Assembly (NCBI GenBank): GCA_902386535.1
Contig: CABMJK010000045.1
Coordinates: 1-32,021 of the forward strand
DNA from: Candidatus Burarchaeum australiense
GTDB lineage: Archaea; Micrarchaeota; Micrarchaeia; Burarchaeales; Burarchaeaceae
Direction: 5' to 3'
DNA length: 32,021 nt
The first letter of the stretch is position 1. Each line of letters begins with the position of its first letter. Positions 13,546-21,677 of this stretch are shown piece after piece. The translations under genes and the position numbers were made by a program. The notes beneath the pieces are model-generated. The model made no database searches. It was not told the origin of the DNA and worked only from the letters and a program-made list of their open reading frames with translations.

Positions 13546-15633
13546 CTAATCGTAGTGCTTCACGATCTTGATGAACCCGTGCTTCGGCTTGTAATAATCT
13601 CCCTTGGTCACCTTCTCGTCTATGAGCTGCAGCACCACGCGCTCGTCGATGCCCTGCGCCTTGGCCGCGTCCACGACAGCCTTCAATTCCACCATGTCCG
13701 AGTTGCGCTGCAGGTCTGCCACCAGGTCTATCACAGTGTTGAACTTGTCTATCTTGGACTTCTGCTGGCCGGTAATCATGTCAATGTCGAGCGTCTGCGT
13801 GGTCATGTCGAAGGCCGTCTGCCTGAGCACGAATTCCATCAGCCTTATAGCCCTTTCCGAGTCTGCCACGGTCACTTCCTGGCTGAGCCTGAGCTTGGCC
13901 ACTGCCTGGCTCATGCGGATGAGGCCCTCGAGCTGCCGGGGCGTGATGGGCACGGGCCCGCCGCGCTTTCCGAGGCTCCTCATCTCCTCATAGTATGACC
14001 TGAGCCTGTCCGACGCCTCCTGCGAAAGAACCGGCCTTATGGTCTTGCGCGCGTAGGCGATGTACTTGCGCAGCAGCTCTGTCGGTATGAGAGGCACGTC
14101 GCTCGAGACCGGCGGGGGCGTGCCGAGCACCGCGCTCCTGTGCGAGTCTAGCACGAACTCCGCGAGCTTCTTGTCCTGGGACGGGTCGAGCACGTCCTTG
14201 ATGGGGAATATGAGGTCGAAGCGCGAGATAAGCGTTGGTATGATTTTGAACTGGTCGGCCACGCTCTTGCTCTGGTCGAACCTGCCGAACTCCGGGTTGG
14301 CCGCTGCCAGTATGGCCGTCTTGGCCTTCATCTGCGCCACTATGCCAGCCTTTGCTATGCTGACCCTCTGCGATTCCATCACTTCGTGCAGCGCGCCCTT
14401 GTCCTCGTCGCTCACCTTGTCAAATTCGTCGATGGACGCAATCCCTCCGCTTGCGAGCACGAGCGCTCCTGCCTTGAGCACCCAGCCCCCTTCGCCGAAG
14501 CCCATGTCCGTGTCCTTCTCGGCCGAGGCCGTGAGGCCAACGCCGGTCAGCGTCTTGCCGCCCACGAAAATGCTCTTGGGCGCAATCTGCTGCACGTATT
14601 GCAGGAAGCGCGTCTTTCCAACGCCCGGGTCTCCGATGAGCAGGATGTGCATGTCGCTCCTTATCTTGCCTCCTCCTGACAGCGTGAGGTCGGGCGTGCC
14701 CCCGAAAAGCTGGAGCGCGATGCCCTCCTTCACTTCGTGATAACCATAGAGTGCGGGTGCGATGGAGCCTATGACTTTTTCATACAGCTTCGGGTCCTTG
14801 GACAGCGCCAGGATTTCCTCCTCCTCCTGCTTGGTAAGCTCCATTTCCTCGAACTCCCTCTGCTGCTTCTTCATGTGCACCGTGTCCACGTACATCGAGT
14901 AGCCTATCTTGCCCTTTATCGGCGGTATTATGCGCAGGACCCCGGTGATCGTCACGTTGTCGCCCGGCACGATGGTGTTGACCAGGTCATCCTCGAGCCT
15001 GATGTCGATGTGCGACGCGGGCTCGCCGCCCCTCAGTTTTTCGAGCGGCTCCTGCGAGTCCGCCCTCTGCAGGTTCACGAAATAGGAGCGGTCCTCGTCA
15101 ATGGTCAGGCCCTTGCGCTTGCACGATTCGCACACGCTCGGCTCGTGGAAGTTCTTGCTGACGGGAATCTTGTATTCGGCATCGCAGTATTTGCACACGT
15201 AGAGCGCTATGCGCACGCGCGGCCTGACCTCCGCCCTCTTGGTCACGAGGCCGTCGAAGGTGATGAGTTTGTTGATATACTGTGCGCCCAGCTGCTCGAT
15301 GAGCAGGCCCCGGTCGGGCAGGCCGAAGAACCTCACGTGAGGCTCGAACGCTTTGCCCGGTATCTTGGGCAGCGGCATCGCCTCAAGCGCCCTCTCCGAT
15401 GCCTCGATGACCTGGTCGGGCTCCTCGATGAGCTCGTCGGCGAGCTCCACGTCGAACCGCTCGAGCTCGGCATAGTCGACTTCGAGGCTCTTCTGCGCAG
15501 GGTAGTTGGCCGCCAGTCTCTCGATTTCCTTCCTGTACTTGAGGTCGAAGAACTCCTCGAACTTCTTGATTAGGTCGTCTAGGTTGTATTCAGGCATTCC
15601 TACCGCCTCGGCCAGTTCTCTGTTACTCTCCAC
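13546..15633 (-). CDS. mcm: Replicative helicase MCM
   Basis: A 695-residue single archaeal MCM. The N-terminal domain contains a zinc site with two CxxC pairs (CKYC and CESC, about residues 146-170). The AAA+ domain has Walker A LIGDPGVGKTRF (about 333-344), Walker B in GIASIDEFDKVSDEDK, sensor 1 ILAAANPEFGRFD and the arginine finger in ISRFDLIFPI. A C-terminal winged-helix region follows (from about IDLVADLQRNSDMVELKAVV). The frame opens with a GTG at 15633. An ATG at 15599 preceded by GAGGCGGTAGGA is at least as good and would leave a long leader holding two hairpins. It shares a divergent promoter region with the peptidase gene at 15817. Confidence 0.96.
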   Translation of the reverse strand: MESNRELAEAVGMPEYNLDDLIKKFEEFFDLKYRKEIERLAANYPAQKSLEVDYAELERFDVELADELIEEPDQVIEASERALEAMPLPKIPGKAFEPHVRFFGLPDRGLLIEQLGAQYINKLITFDGLVTKRAEVRPRVRIALYVCKYCDAEYKIPVSKNFHEPSVCESCKRKGLTIDEDRSYFVNLQRADSQEPLEKLRGGEPASHIDIRLEDDLVNTIVPGDNVTITGVLRIIPPIKGKIGYSMYVDTVHMKKQQREFEEMELTKQEEEEILALSKDPKLYEKVIGSIAPALYGYHEVKEGIALQLFGGTPDLTLSGGGKIRSDMHILLIGDPGVGKTRFLQYVQQIAPKSIFVGGKTLTGVGLTASAEKDTDMGFGEGGWVLKAGALVLASGGIASIDEFDKVSDEDKGALHEVMESQRVSIAKAGIVAQMKAKTAILAAANPEFGRFDQSKSVADQFKIIPTLISRFDLIFPIKDVLDPSQDKKLAEFVLDSHRSAVLGTPPPVSSDVPLIPTELLRKYIAYARKTIRPVLSQEASDRLRSYYEEMRSLGKRGGPVPITPRQLEGLIRMSQAVAKLRLSQEVTVADSERAIRLMEFVLRQTAFDMTTQTLDIDMITGQQKSKIDKFNTVIDLVADLQRNSDMVELKAVVDAAKAQGIDERVVLQLIDEKVTKGDYYKPKHGFIKIVKHYD

Positions 15634-15645
15634 CCCGCTCCCACG

Positions 15646-15700
15646 CCCACTTTCCCTCGCGGGAAAGGGGTCCTCTTTCTCCTCCCAGAGAAAGCGGAAG
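15646..15700. repeat. Two adjacent palindromes upstream of mcm, related to the tRNA intron palindromes
   Basis: The first palindrome, TTTCCCTCGCGGGAAA (15651-15666), is flanked by CCCAC and GGGGT. The second is a 7-bp hairpin, CTTTCTC and GAGAAAG (15675-15694). Both lie between the mcm TATA box and its start codon, so they would be in the mRNA leader. The first is very like the palindrome in the second intron of tRNA-Lys (20907-20926): that copy has an extra TC on the left arm and a matching extra GA on the right, so pairing is kept. Confidence 0.7.
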
Positions 15701-20230: not shown

Positions 20231-20752
20231 ATGCCCGCAACCCCACTTCACCTCGGCCCCGGCCTTTTCGCAGCCGCCCTTCTCCTCGCCGTAGCTGACC
20301 TTCCTTCCCTGCTAATTGCAAGCATCATTCTCGACGTCGAGCCGGGCAGCAATTTGGTTTTGCGCCTCTCCGGCCTCAATCCTCCCTTTGCCTACCATGG
20401 TTTTCTTCATTCGTTCCTGGGCGCGACCGTCGCCGCGCTTATTCTCGCTCCTGTGCTCCTATGGCTCGCCCAGAAGCTGAGAAACCGCAAGTTCTTCGGC
20501 CATTTCTGGGCGCCGACCGCGGGCGCAGTTCTCCTCGCCTGCCTCGTGGGCACGAACCTTCACATTCTCGTCGACTCCTTCGTGAACACCGACATGCAGC
20601 CCTTCTGGCCTTACCTGCAAAATCCGCTGCTGGGCCTCATCCCGCCGCTGGAACTCTACGTCGCCTGCCTGGCTCTTTTCATCCTCGGCGCGGCCCTCCT
20701 TGCTTTCCGCCTCCGCGGCTCTCGTTTTTTAAAGCCTGCCTTCCCTAAATAA
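20231..20752 (+). CDS. DUF457/YdjM-like membrane protein, putative metal-dependent hydrolase
   Basis: A 173-residue membrane protein with four or five hydrophobic segments. Conserved polar groups sit at membrane edges: TPLHLGPG near the N-terminus, LDVEPGSN, YHGFLHSFLGA and LHILVDSFVNTDMQPFWP. This His/Asp arrangement is that of the YdjM/DUF457 family, annotated as membrane-bound metal-dependent hydrolases of unknown substrate. The ATG lies 25 bases after a TATA-like stretch shared with the divergent toxin-antitoxin promoter. The tRNA promoter falls within its last codons. Confidence 0.75.
   Translation: MPATPLHLGPGLFAAALLLAVADLPSLLIASIILDVEPGSNLVLRLSGLNPPFAYHGFLHSFLGATVAALILAPVLLWLAQKLRNRKFFGHFWAPTAGAVLLACLVGTNLHILVDSFVNTDMQPFWPYLQNPLLGLIPPLELYVACLALFILGAALLAFRLRGSRFLKPAFPK
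20725..20734 (+). promoter_or_regulatory. TATA box for the tRNA-Lys/fibrillarin unit
   Basis: TTTTTTAAAG lies about 30 bases before the first base of the tRNA, inside the 3' end of the upstream gene. No separate promoter is visible before the fibrillarin start codon. Confidence 0.6.
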
Positions 20753-20799
20753 CGCAACATGGGCTCGTAACTCAGCTTGGCTAGAGTGTCTGGCTTTTA

Positions 20800-20848
20800 G
20801 CCTTTCTTTCTCGCGAGAAAGAAACCCTAGGGAAAGAAAGAGGCAGCA
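20800..20848 (+). other. tRNA intron 1 (position 37/38), 49 bases
   Basis: The bulge CA|A on the 3' side (20847-20849) fits splicing endonuclease cleavage before A38. The 5' side is UA|G (20798-20800). The central helix between the bulges is poor (only CU with AG pairs well), so this is a relaxed bulge-helix-bulge. Inside, the bases 20803-20813 and 20814-20824 form an 11-bp perfect palindrome (centre TCTCGCGAGA), followed by CCCTAGGG (20825-20832) and AAAGAAAG. The CCTTTCTTTC at 20801 could instead pair with the later GAAAGAAAG. Confidence 0.8.
20803..20832. repeat. Palindrome pair in tRNA intron 1
   Basis: A CGCG-centred palindrome with CTTTCT/AGAAAG arms (20803-20824) is followed at once by CCCTAGGG (20825-20832). 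The order and motif types match the pair in intron 2. Confidence 0.65.
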
Positions 20849-20870
20849 ACCAGAAAGTCGTGGGTTCAAA

Positions 20871-20976
20871 TGGCCCTTTTGCGCCTAAGGGCGCAAAAGC
20901 CCCCCACTTTCTCCCGCGGGAGAAAGGGGCACCATTCCCTAGTAGGGAATGTGTGCAGGGGAAAAGGCCTTGAAAA
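20871..20976 (+). other. tRNA intron 2 (T loop, position 59/60), 106 bases
   Basis: The flanks form a nearly canonical bulge-helix-bulge. The outer helix is the T stem GTGGG (20860-20864) with CCCAC (20978-20982). The 3' bulge is AA|T (20975-20977). The central helix is TTCAA (20865-20869) with TTGAA (20970-20974). The 5' bulge ends A|T (20870/20871), and the inner helix is GGCC (20872-20875) with GGCC (20966-20969). Cutting both bulges after the A gives exactly position 59/60. The body holds three hairpins: CTTTTGCGCC/GGCGCAAAAG (20876-20899), CTTTCTCCCGCGGGAGAAAG (20907-20926) and CATTCCCTA/TAGGGAATG (20933-20951). Confidence 0.88.
20907..20951. repeat. Palindrome pair in tRNA intron 2
   Basis: CTTTCTCCCGCGGGAGAAAG (20907-20926) is a perfect 20-base palindrome. 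It can be extended by CCC and GGG around a bulged A. Six bases later comes CATTCCCTA-G-TAGGGAATG (20933-20951), which holds the same CCCTA/TAGGG core as intron 1. The first palindrome with its flanks (CCCAC left, GGGG right) also matches the element before mcm at 15646-15670. Confidence 0.7.
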
Positions 20977-21002
20977 TCCCACCGAGCCCGTTCGTGATTT
21001 TT

Positions 21003-21677
21003 ATGGACGTCAGGAAAGGCGCATCCAACTTCTACTGGCTTTCCGAAGGCGCGCGCAGGATGCTCGCCACCAAAAGCCTTGCGCCGGGCAGGCGCGTCTA
21101 CGGCGAGCGGCTCGTGCAAGTCGGCGGATCCGAATACCGGACCTGGGACCCGAACAGGAGCAAGCTGGCGGCCGCCATCATGAAGGGCCTGAAGGAGGTT
21201 CCGATTCGCGAGGGCTCGAACGTGCTCTATTTGGGCGCGGCCAGTGGCACGACCTCCTCGCACGTGAGCGACATCGTGGGCAAGAGCGGCGCGGTCTATT
21301 GCATCGAGTTCGCCCCGCGCTCATTGCGCGATTTGATTGGCGTGTGCGAGGCGCGGCCCAACATGCTGCCCCTTCTCGCAGATGCCCGCCAGCCGCAGAC
21401 ATATGCCGACAAGATAGAGAAAATCGACGTCATCTACCAGGACGTCGCGCAGCCGGACCAGGCCCGCATCCTCATCGACAACGCGAAACTCTTCCTGAAG
21501 AAAGGCCAGTTCGCGCTCATCGCCGTCAAATCTCAGAGCATCGACGTGACAAAGAAGACATCGGAAATCTACGAAAACGTGCTGGCCGAGCTAAGCTCGC
21601 ACTTCGAAGTAGTCGAGAAGCTTCCGCTTGAGCCCTATGAGAAGGACCACCTGTTCGTGTCCCTGCGGGTGAAGTAA
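21003..21677 (+). CDS. flpA: Fibrillarin-like rRNA/tRNA 2'-O-methyltransferase
   Basis: A 224-residue archaeal fibrillarin, the catalytic subunit of box C/D ribonucleoproteins that methylate rRNA ribose under guide-RNA control. The N-terminal domain ends in RRVYGERLVQVGGSEYRTWD and NRSKLAAAIMKGL. The SAM site is VLYLGAASGTTSSHVSDIVG, followed by VYCIEFAPRSLRDL, VIYQDVAQPDQA and FALIAVKSQSIDVTK. The ATG at 21003 gives the normal archaeal length; upstream in-frame codons fall inside the tRNA gene. There is no Shine-Dalgarno. The nop5 gene usually beside flpA is not in the window. Transcription most likely comes through the tRNA. Confidence 0.95.
   Translation: MDVRKGASNFYWLSEGARRMLATKSLAPGRRVYGERLVQVGGSEYRTWDPNRSKLAAAIMKGLKEVPIREGSNVLYLGAASGTTSSHVSDIVGKSGAVYCIEFAPRSLRDLIGVCEARPNMLPLLADARQPQTYADKIEKIDVIYQDVAQPDQARILIDNAKLFLKKGQFALIAVKSQSIDVTKKTSEIYENVLAELSSHFEVVEKLPLEPYEKDHLFVSLRVK

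Follow-up and report, generated by a model that had tools for sequence, protein, structure and literature searches.

A tRNA-Lys(UUU) gene of Candidatus Burarchaeum australiense with two predicted introns, one of them in the T loop

Background

The route by which archaeal tRNA genes acquire introns at unusual positions is a long-standing question, debated chiefly with reference to Thermoproteales. Introns with bulge-helix-bulge (BHB) splice structures are known from non-canonical positions of archaeal tRNA genes, including position 59/60 (PMC4090602). Multiple tRNA introns have been described in ARMAN-1 and ARMAN-2, and intron transposition in Thermoproteales (PMC4033280, PMC4090602), which average 0.84 introns per tRNA gene (PMC8450103). 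The splicing endonucleases of the epsilon2 type display broad specificity (PMC6379350, PMC12397907), and alanine mutants of residues Y160 and K161 of the ARMAN-2 enzyme EndA lost the cutting of both BHB and BHL substrates (PMC12397907). Our search of the literature on Micrarchaeota and DPANN archaea yielded nothing specific on tRNA introns.

Here we describe a locus in a 32,021-nt contig of the very small, uncultured archaeon Candidatus Burarchaeum australiense (CABMJK010000045.1), hereafter the window. Its genome (G000) is a draft assembly of 68 contigs, 91% complete and with 5.4% contamination. The closest genome compared (G002) belongs to the same genus, Candidatus Burarchaeum, of the Micrarchaeota. 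We consider it very likely that positions 20761-20990 of the window are a functional tRNA-Lys(UUU) gene, probably the only one of this genome, with introns at 37/38 and 59/60 that an epsilon2 EndA would cut and a ligase that would join the exons into a 75-nt tRNA.

This gene resembles the archaeal non-canonical BHB introns in position, in a BHB-type junction, in having more than one intron and in the need for an endonuclease of broad specificity. It differs from them by its occurrence in Micrarchaeota, by the ten T-loop introns found in one genome, by the empty site of a congener and by the mobile palindrome nested within the intron. Compared with the transposing tRNA introns of the Thermoproteales type, those of Burarchaeum belong to another phylum and go with an epsilon2 rather than a heteromeric enzyme; they display presence and absence between congeners, and one of their families (family A, in G002) also has copies outside tRNA genes, one in a spacer and one within a protein gene. 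As far as the literature consulted shows, two things are new: dense T-loop introns with empty sites between Micrarchaeota congeners, with the qualification that priority on T-loop introns in the phylum is not certain, and a palindrome common to tRNA introns and protein genes. The position and the enzyme type are already known; what seems to be a new variant is the composite intron with a repeat in it.

Results and discussion

A lysine tRNA gene in three exons

The locus comprises the following features, all on the + strand of the window:

20725..20734, +: TATA-like stretch TTTTTTAAAG, a possible promoter read from the sequence, 27-36 bases 5' of the tRNA
20761..20799, +: exon 1, tRNA-Lys(UUU) positions 1-37, GGGCTCGTAACTCAGCTTGGCTAGAGTGTCTGGCTTTTA; identical in the congener G002
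20800..20848, +: intron 1, 49 nt, canonical position 37/38, with a relaxed splice structure (G002 homolog, predicted fold)
20849..20870, +: exon 2, tRNA-Lys(UUU) positions 38-59, ACCAGAAAGTCGTGGGTTCAAA (ARAGORN on the joined exons)
20871..20976, +: intron 2, 106 nt, in the T loop at position 59/60; without counterpart in the G002 ortholog
20871..20899, +: 5' part of the core of intron 2 (family C), sharing 28 of 29 bases with the T-loop intron of the G002 tRNA-Lys(CUU)
20901..20961 (ends approximate), +: two-hairpin palindromic repeat nested in intron 2; missing from the homologous G002 intron
20977..20990, +: exon 3, tRNA-Lys(UUU) positions 60-73, TCCCACCGAGCCCG; no encoded CCA
21003..21677, +: fibrillarin gene, probable start 21003 (Pfam PF01269, E 8e-91); same neighbour in G002

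The exon and intron coordinates had been proposed in an earlier note made from the sequence alone, and they proved exact. ARAGORN recognised the three joined exons as a tRNA-Lys(ttt) of 75 nt whose stems are all paired. No tRNA was called when both introns or the T-loop intron alone were retained, and retention of the 37/38 intron alone led to a miscalled tRNA-Glu with a wrong intron. Removal of both introns, which the earlier note had held necessary, thus restores a complete cloverleaf, as expected of archaeal BHB tRNA introns.

That note had also expected ordinary tRNA searches to miss the gene, and they do. In the whole unspliced window there was no ARAGORN tRNA and no Rfam match above threshold. 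A permissive Rfam search of the locus gave 26.8 bits, short of the cut-off of 29; this match had a wrong 3' end, with the 3' half of the acceptor stem drawn from inside the intron. The problem extends over the genome: only 16 of the about 33 recognisable tRNA genes of G000 passed the Rfam cut-off, so that much of the tRNA set of such genomes is lost to standard annotation.

The AAA codon is in use, with 59 AAA and 261 AAG codons in ten genes of the window. A search for another tRNA-Lys(UUU), proposed along with the first reading of the locus, found none in the assembly; as the latter is 91% complete and carries 5.4% contamination, it may miss a second gene. A second, dissimilar tRNA-Lys(CUU) lies on a 7-kb contig (L008, contig C65); its 37/38 intron is short and its T loop uninterrupted, and it is possibly part of the contamination.

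The longest open reading frame of the fibrillarin gene begins within the tRNA intron (window 20949-21003), and therefore automatic annotation would overlap the tRNA; its real start is probably the ATG at 21003. An assignment of this downstream gene to FtsJ/RlmE was ruled out by Pfam, and its protein had no match when viral contigs were searched.

Precursor fold and splice sites

The unconstrained minimum free energy (MFE) fold of the 230-nt precursor is a cloverleaf with one insert in the anticodon arm and one in the T arm. Its energy is -110.9 kcal/mol, against -78.3 +/- 4.8 for shuffled sequences (z -6.85; no shuffle was as good), and the T arm folded alone gave a z of -6.18.

At 59/60, the MFE fold displays a near-canonical BHB. 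The T stem pairs 20860-20864 with 20978-20982, and a central helix of 5 bp (TTCAA/TTGAA) pairs 20865-20869 with 20970-20974, with a GGCC/GGCC helix beyond. The earlier note had drawn this helix with an AAT bulge on either side. The 3' bulge is AAT as drawn (20975-20977); the 5' bulge, next to the 5-bp helix, is the 2-nt AT (20870-20871). When the helix is drawn with 4 bp (TTCA/TGAA), both bulges are 3-nt AAT, and in this form they agree on one cut at 59/60, as had been proposed. Meanwhile, the 37/38 junction folds as an internal loop of 6 x 5 nt. A strict BHB at 37/38 is absent from the precursor MFE, and by this predicted fold the site is relaxed.

The two 59/60 junctions have A's and T's in common (TTCAAAT and GAAAAT), and because of these shared bases cuts at 58/59 or 60/61 are also allowed by sequence alone, all three giving one and the same product. 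An exact cut one base to either side is nevertheless unlikely, since both bulges point to 59/60, which is also a known intron position (PMC4090602). The cut is thus predicted at 59/60 by the BHB rule, not one base off.

A natural empty site in the congener

The G002 ortholog (C21:9846-9967, minus strand) has the same downstream gene, fibrillarin, and its 75 exon bases are identical to those of the window gene. Its 37/38 intron, of 47 nt, is homologous to intron 1 (45/47 aligned bases identical). Its T loop is uninterrupted, which makes it an empty site at 59/60 and thereby fixes the excised length of intron 2. The predicted spliced product can hence be read directly from the sister species. 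With its one intron in place, the ortholog scored 56.3 bits in Rfam RF00005; a covariance model therefore accepts the same exons, one of the points on which the first reading had staked its refutation.

Over the next ~600 downstream bases, the window and G002 are only ~81% identical (484/598 aligned), and the contrast with the 75/75 exon bases indicates selection on the mature tRNA. This bears on the alternative that the locus is a pseudogene, killed by a mobile repeat in its T loop, while another gene supplies tRNA-Lys(UUU). Such a reading would account for an insert that holds a repeat found elsewhere in the genome, protein genes included. We regard it as very improbable, given that the exons match an uninterrupted congener gene in full despite diverged flanks, that the search of the assembly revealed no other UUU gene, and that nine other G000 tRNAs carry inserts with BHB-like ends at exactly the same site.

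An epsilon2 splicing endonuclease

An EndA of the epsilon2 or heteromeric type had been named in the earlier note as something to look for, and one of the epsilon2 type is encoded on G000 contig C42. This protein of 386 aa aligned over its full length (residues 5-386) with the ARMAN-2 EndA (PDB 4fz2; 464 bits, E 4e-138). It has the epsilon2 architecture, a single three-unit chain of ~390 aa that matches the ARMAN-2 enzyme from end to end. The catalytic residues Y236, H251, and K282 all have conserved equivalents, and so do Y160 and K161 of the ARMAN-specific loop, the latter as K160 of the G000 protein. Among the named relatives of this protein, the best is from Candidatus Burarchaeum sp. (92%); many Micrarchaeota come next. 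Full-length homology, catalytic triad and loop Tyr-Lys pair are thus kept in comparison with the ARMAN-2 enzyme (PDB 4fz2, 9w2k; PMC6379350, PMC12397907), a relative for which an RNA complex has been solved. The G000 protein is an ARMAN-2-like epsilon2 splicing endonuclease, and we predict that it cuts the T-loop introns.

Based on these features, we propose that the 230-nt precursor is transcribed and that its introns form protruding hairpin arms. An epsilon2 dimer would then cut the bulges of the 37/38 and 59/60 sites, and a ligase would join the exon ends into the 75-nt tRNA. The cutting, joining and charging in the cell, as well as the order of these events, are put forward here as a model.

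T-loop introns in two Burarchaeum genomes

We compiled T-loop introns from weak Rfam hits and repeat searches that were read by hand. Ten were found in G000 (Lys-UUU, Lys-CUU, Ala-GGC, Ser-GCU, Gln-CUG, Glu-CUC, Ser-CGA, Met-CAU, Arg-UCU, and Pro-GGG) and seven in G002 (Lys-CUU, Ala-GGC, Gln-CUG, Glu-CUC, Ile-GAU, Ile-UAU, and Gly-CCC). ARAGORN accepted the joined exons of these tRNAs, with a misread anticodon in Ser-CGA and Gly-CCC; this is due to the 37/38 splits, which were placed by hand about one base off and leave the T-loop introns unaffected. At the 3' end of most T-loop introns stands YGAAAA or a sequence close to it, which could pair with T54-R57. Altogether, the about 33 recognisable tRNA genes of G000 hold about 33 introns, in a count made by eye that is not complete. 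Two more distant Micrarchaeota also carry T-loop introns in tRNA-Lys(UUU), of 15 nt (G179) and 42 nt (G009).

An assembly error caused by the repeat is another conceivable origin of the window's T-loop insert, as the repeat has many copies and the draft genome is broken into 68 contigs. We judge this extremely improbable: the insert is framed precisely by exons with a BHB, an independent genome has an intron with a matching core at this site in another tRNA, and the same architecture recurs in ten tRNAs.

Introns also occur in the D arm, in tRNA-Val(CAC) (L017, L147), tRNA-Gln(CUG) (L211), and tRNA-Arg(UCU) (L022). Those of tRNA-Val(CAC) occupy the same site in both congeners and are unrelated in sequence.

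Intron turnover and intron families

The two genomes differ in which sites are filled. The 59/60 introns of Lys-UUU and Pro-GGG and the 37/38 intron of Asn-GUU are present in G000 only, their G002 sites being empty, and this presence and absence at one site between close relatives is a property of transposing introns. Lys-CUU has a 37/38 intron in G000 only, and its T-loop introns in the two species are unrelated. At 37/38 of Gly-GCC, G000 and G002 carry different intron families.

A further property of transposing introns, similar intron sequences in different tRNAs and at different positions, is displayed by two families, for which reversed-pattern controls gave 0 matches. Family C, to which the core of intron 2 belongs, had six matches in G000 and G002 combined, 6/6 of them in tRNA genes: at 59/60 of Lys-UUU, Lys-CUU, and Ile-GAU, and at 37/38 of Val-GAC, Glu-CUC, and Gln-CUG. 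Family A had 12 matches, ten of which lie in tRNA genes at 37/38 or 59/60. Its two other copies belong to G002: one is inserted in frame into the N-terminal part of a ribonucleotide reductase gene (peptide GVNVRGRIVVPPA), the other separates rpoA' from rpoA''. Both (L218 on C1 and L214 on C23, respectively) are absent from the orthologous G000 loci (L231, L229). The narrow pattern of a third intron family (CCCTTTTCTTTnnnnAAAGAAAAGC) added few matches. The recurrence of intron families across tRNAs and at both 37/38 and 59/60 indicates that introns turn over quickly.

Intron 2, with the palindrome nested in it, may have been gained recently, either through transfer of an intron that resided in a different tRNA gene or through recombination with tRNA-Lys(CUU). 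We place gene conversion from the paralogous tRNA-Lys(CUU), as opposed to transposition of a free intron, a little short of an even chance. The closest match of the intron 2 core is the T-loop intron of the G002 tRNA-Lys(CUU), with 28 of the first 29 bases shared, and near the site the two lysine tRNA genes hardly differ. However, the tRNA-Lys(CUU) of the window's own genome has an unrelated T-loop intron, and conversion between lysine genes leaves family C at 37/38 of Val, Glu, and Gln and at 59/60 of Ile without explanation.

A palindromic repeat in tRNA introns and protein genes

The window's intron 2 is a family C intron split by a two-hairpin palindrome, and the homologous G002 intron is without it. 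With up to two mismatches, the palindrome signature GAAAGGGGCACCATTCC occurred at 20 places in G000, against 0 for the reversed control. Several copies lie in tRNA introns (Lys-UUU, two Arg, Gly, and Pro-GGG), several beside tRNAs, and others in protein genes. In GAPDH and in a UDP-glucose epimerase homolog, a copy adds about 16-18 residues in frame, and solved relatives have none. The G002 tRNA-Gln carries a similar nested copy within its family C intron at 37/38, and therefore the composite itself may have spread.

Rickettsia palindromic elements (RPE) are short palindromic repeats that interrupt protein genes without breaking the reading frame. The copies in GAPDH and the epimerase likewise are palindromic repeats in frame within protein genes, a functional resemblance; the Burarchaeum copies differ from RPE in lying also within tRNA introns and beside tRNAs. 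As a tentative and on balance doubtful hypothesis, the tRNA introns of Burarchaeum could be born from mobile palindromic repeats that also land in protein genes and spacers and are removed from the tRNAs by the epsilon2 EndA. The window's T-loop intron would then be a young case in two layers, a family C intron that holds a second palindrome. The filled and empty sites, the epsilon2 enzyme and the repeats common to tRNA introns and protein genes allow direct tests both of splicing and of where new introns come from.

We considered an IS200/IS605-type Y1 transposase as the mover of the palindrome. A search for Y1 transposases (PF01797) in G000 found none, which leaves this candidate unsupported for the window's genome; one copy is present in the congener (L228, G002 C54:10271-10615).

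Related repeats occur in frame, adding about 12-18 residues, in the epimerase (L164, C24), GAPDH (L170, C67), a mevalonate-kinase-like gene (L162, C17), and a PurL-like gene (L166, C39) of G000. In the window itself, a CTTTC..GAAAG hairpin like that of the palindromic repeat lies at 15667 on the minus strand, just 5' of the MCM helicase ORF (13546-15633). Finally, a perfect palindrome, AAGAACCGTAGGTTCTT or GGGACCTTGGTCCC, adjoins the first base of many tRNAs (L007, L011, L013, L014, L017, L020, and L021), and related sequence also lies within some introns (L012, L016).
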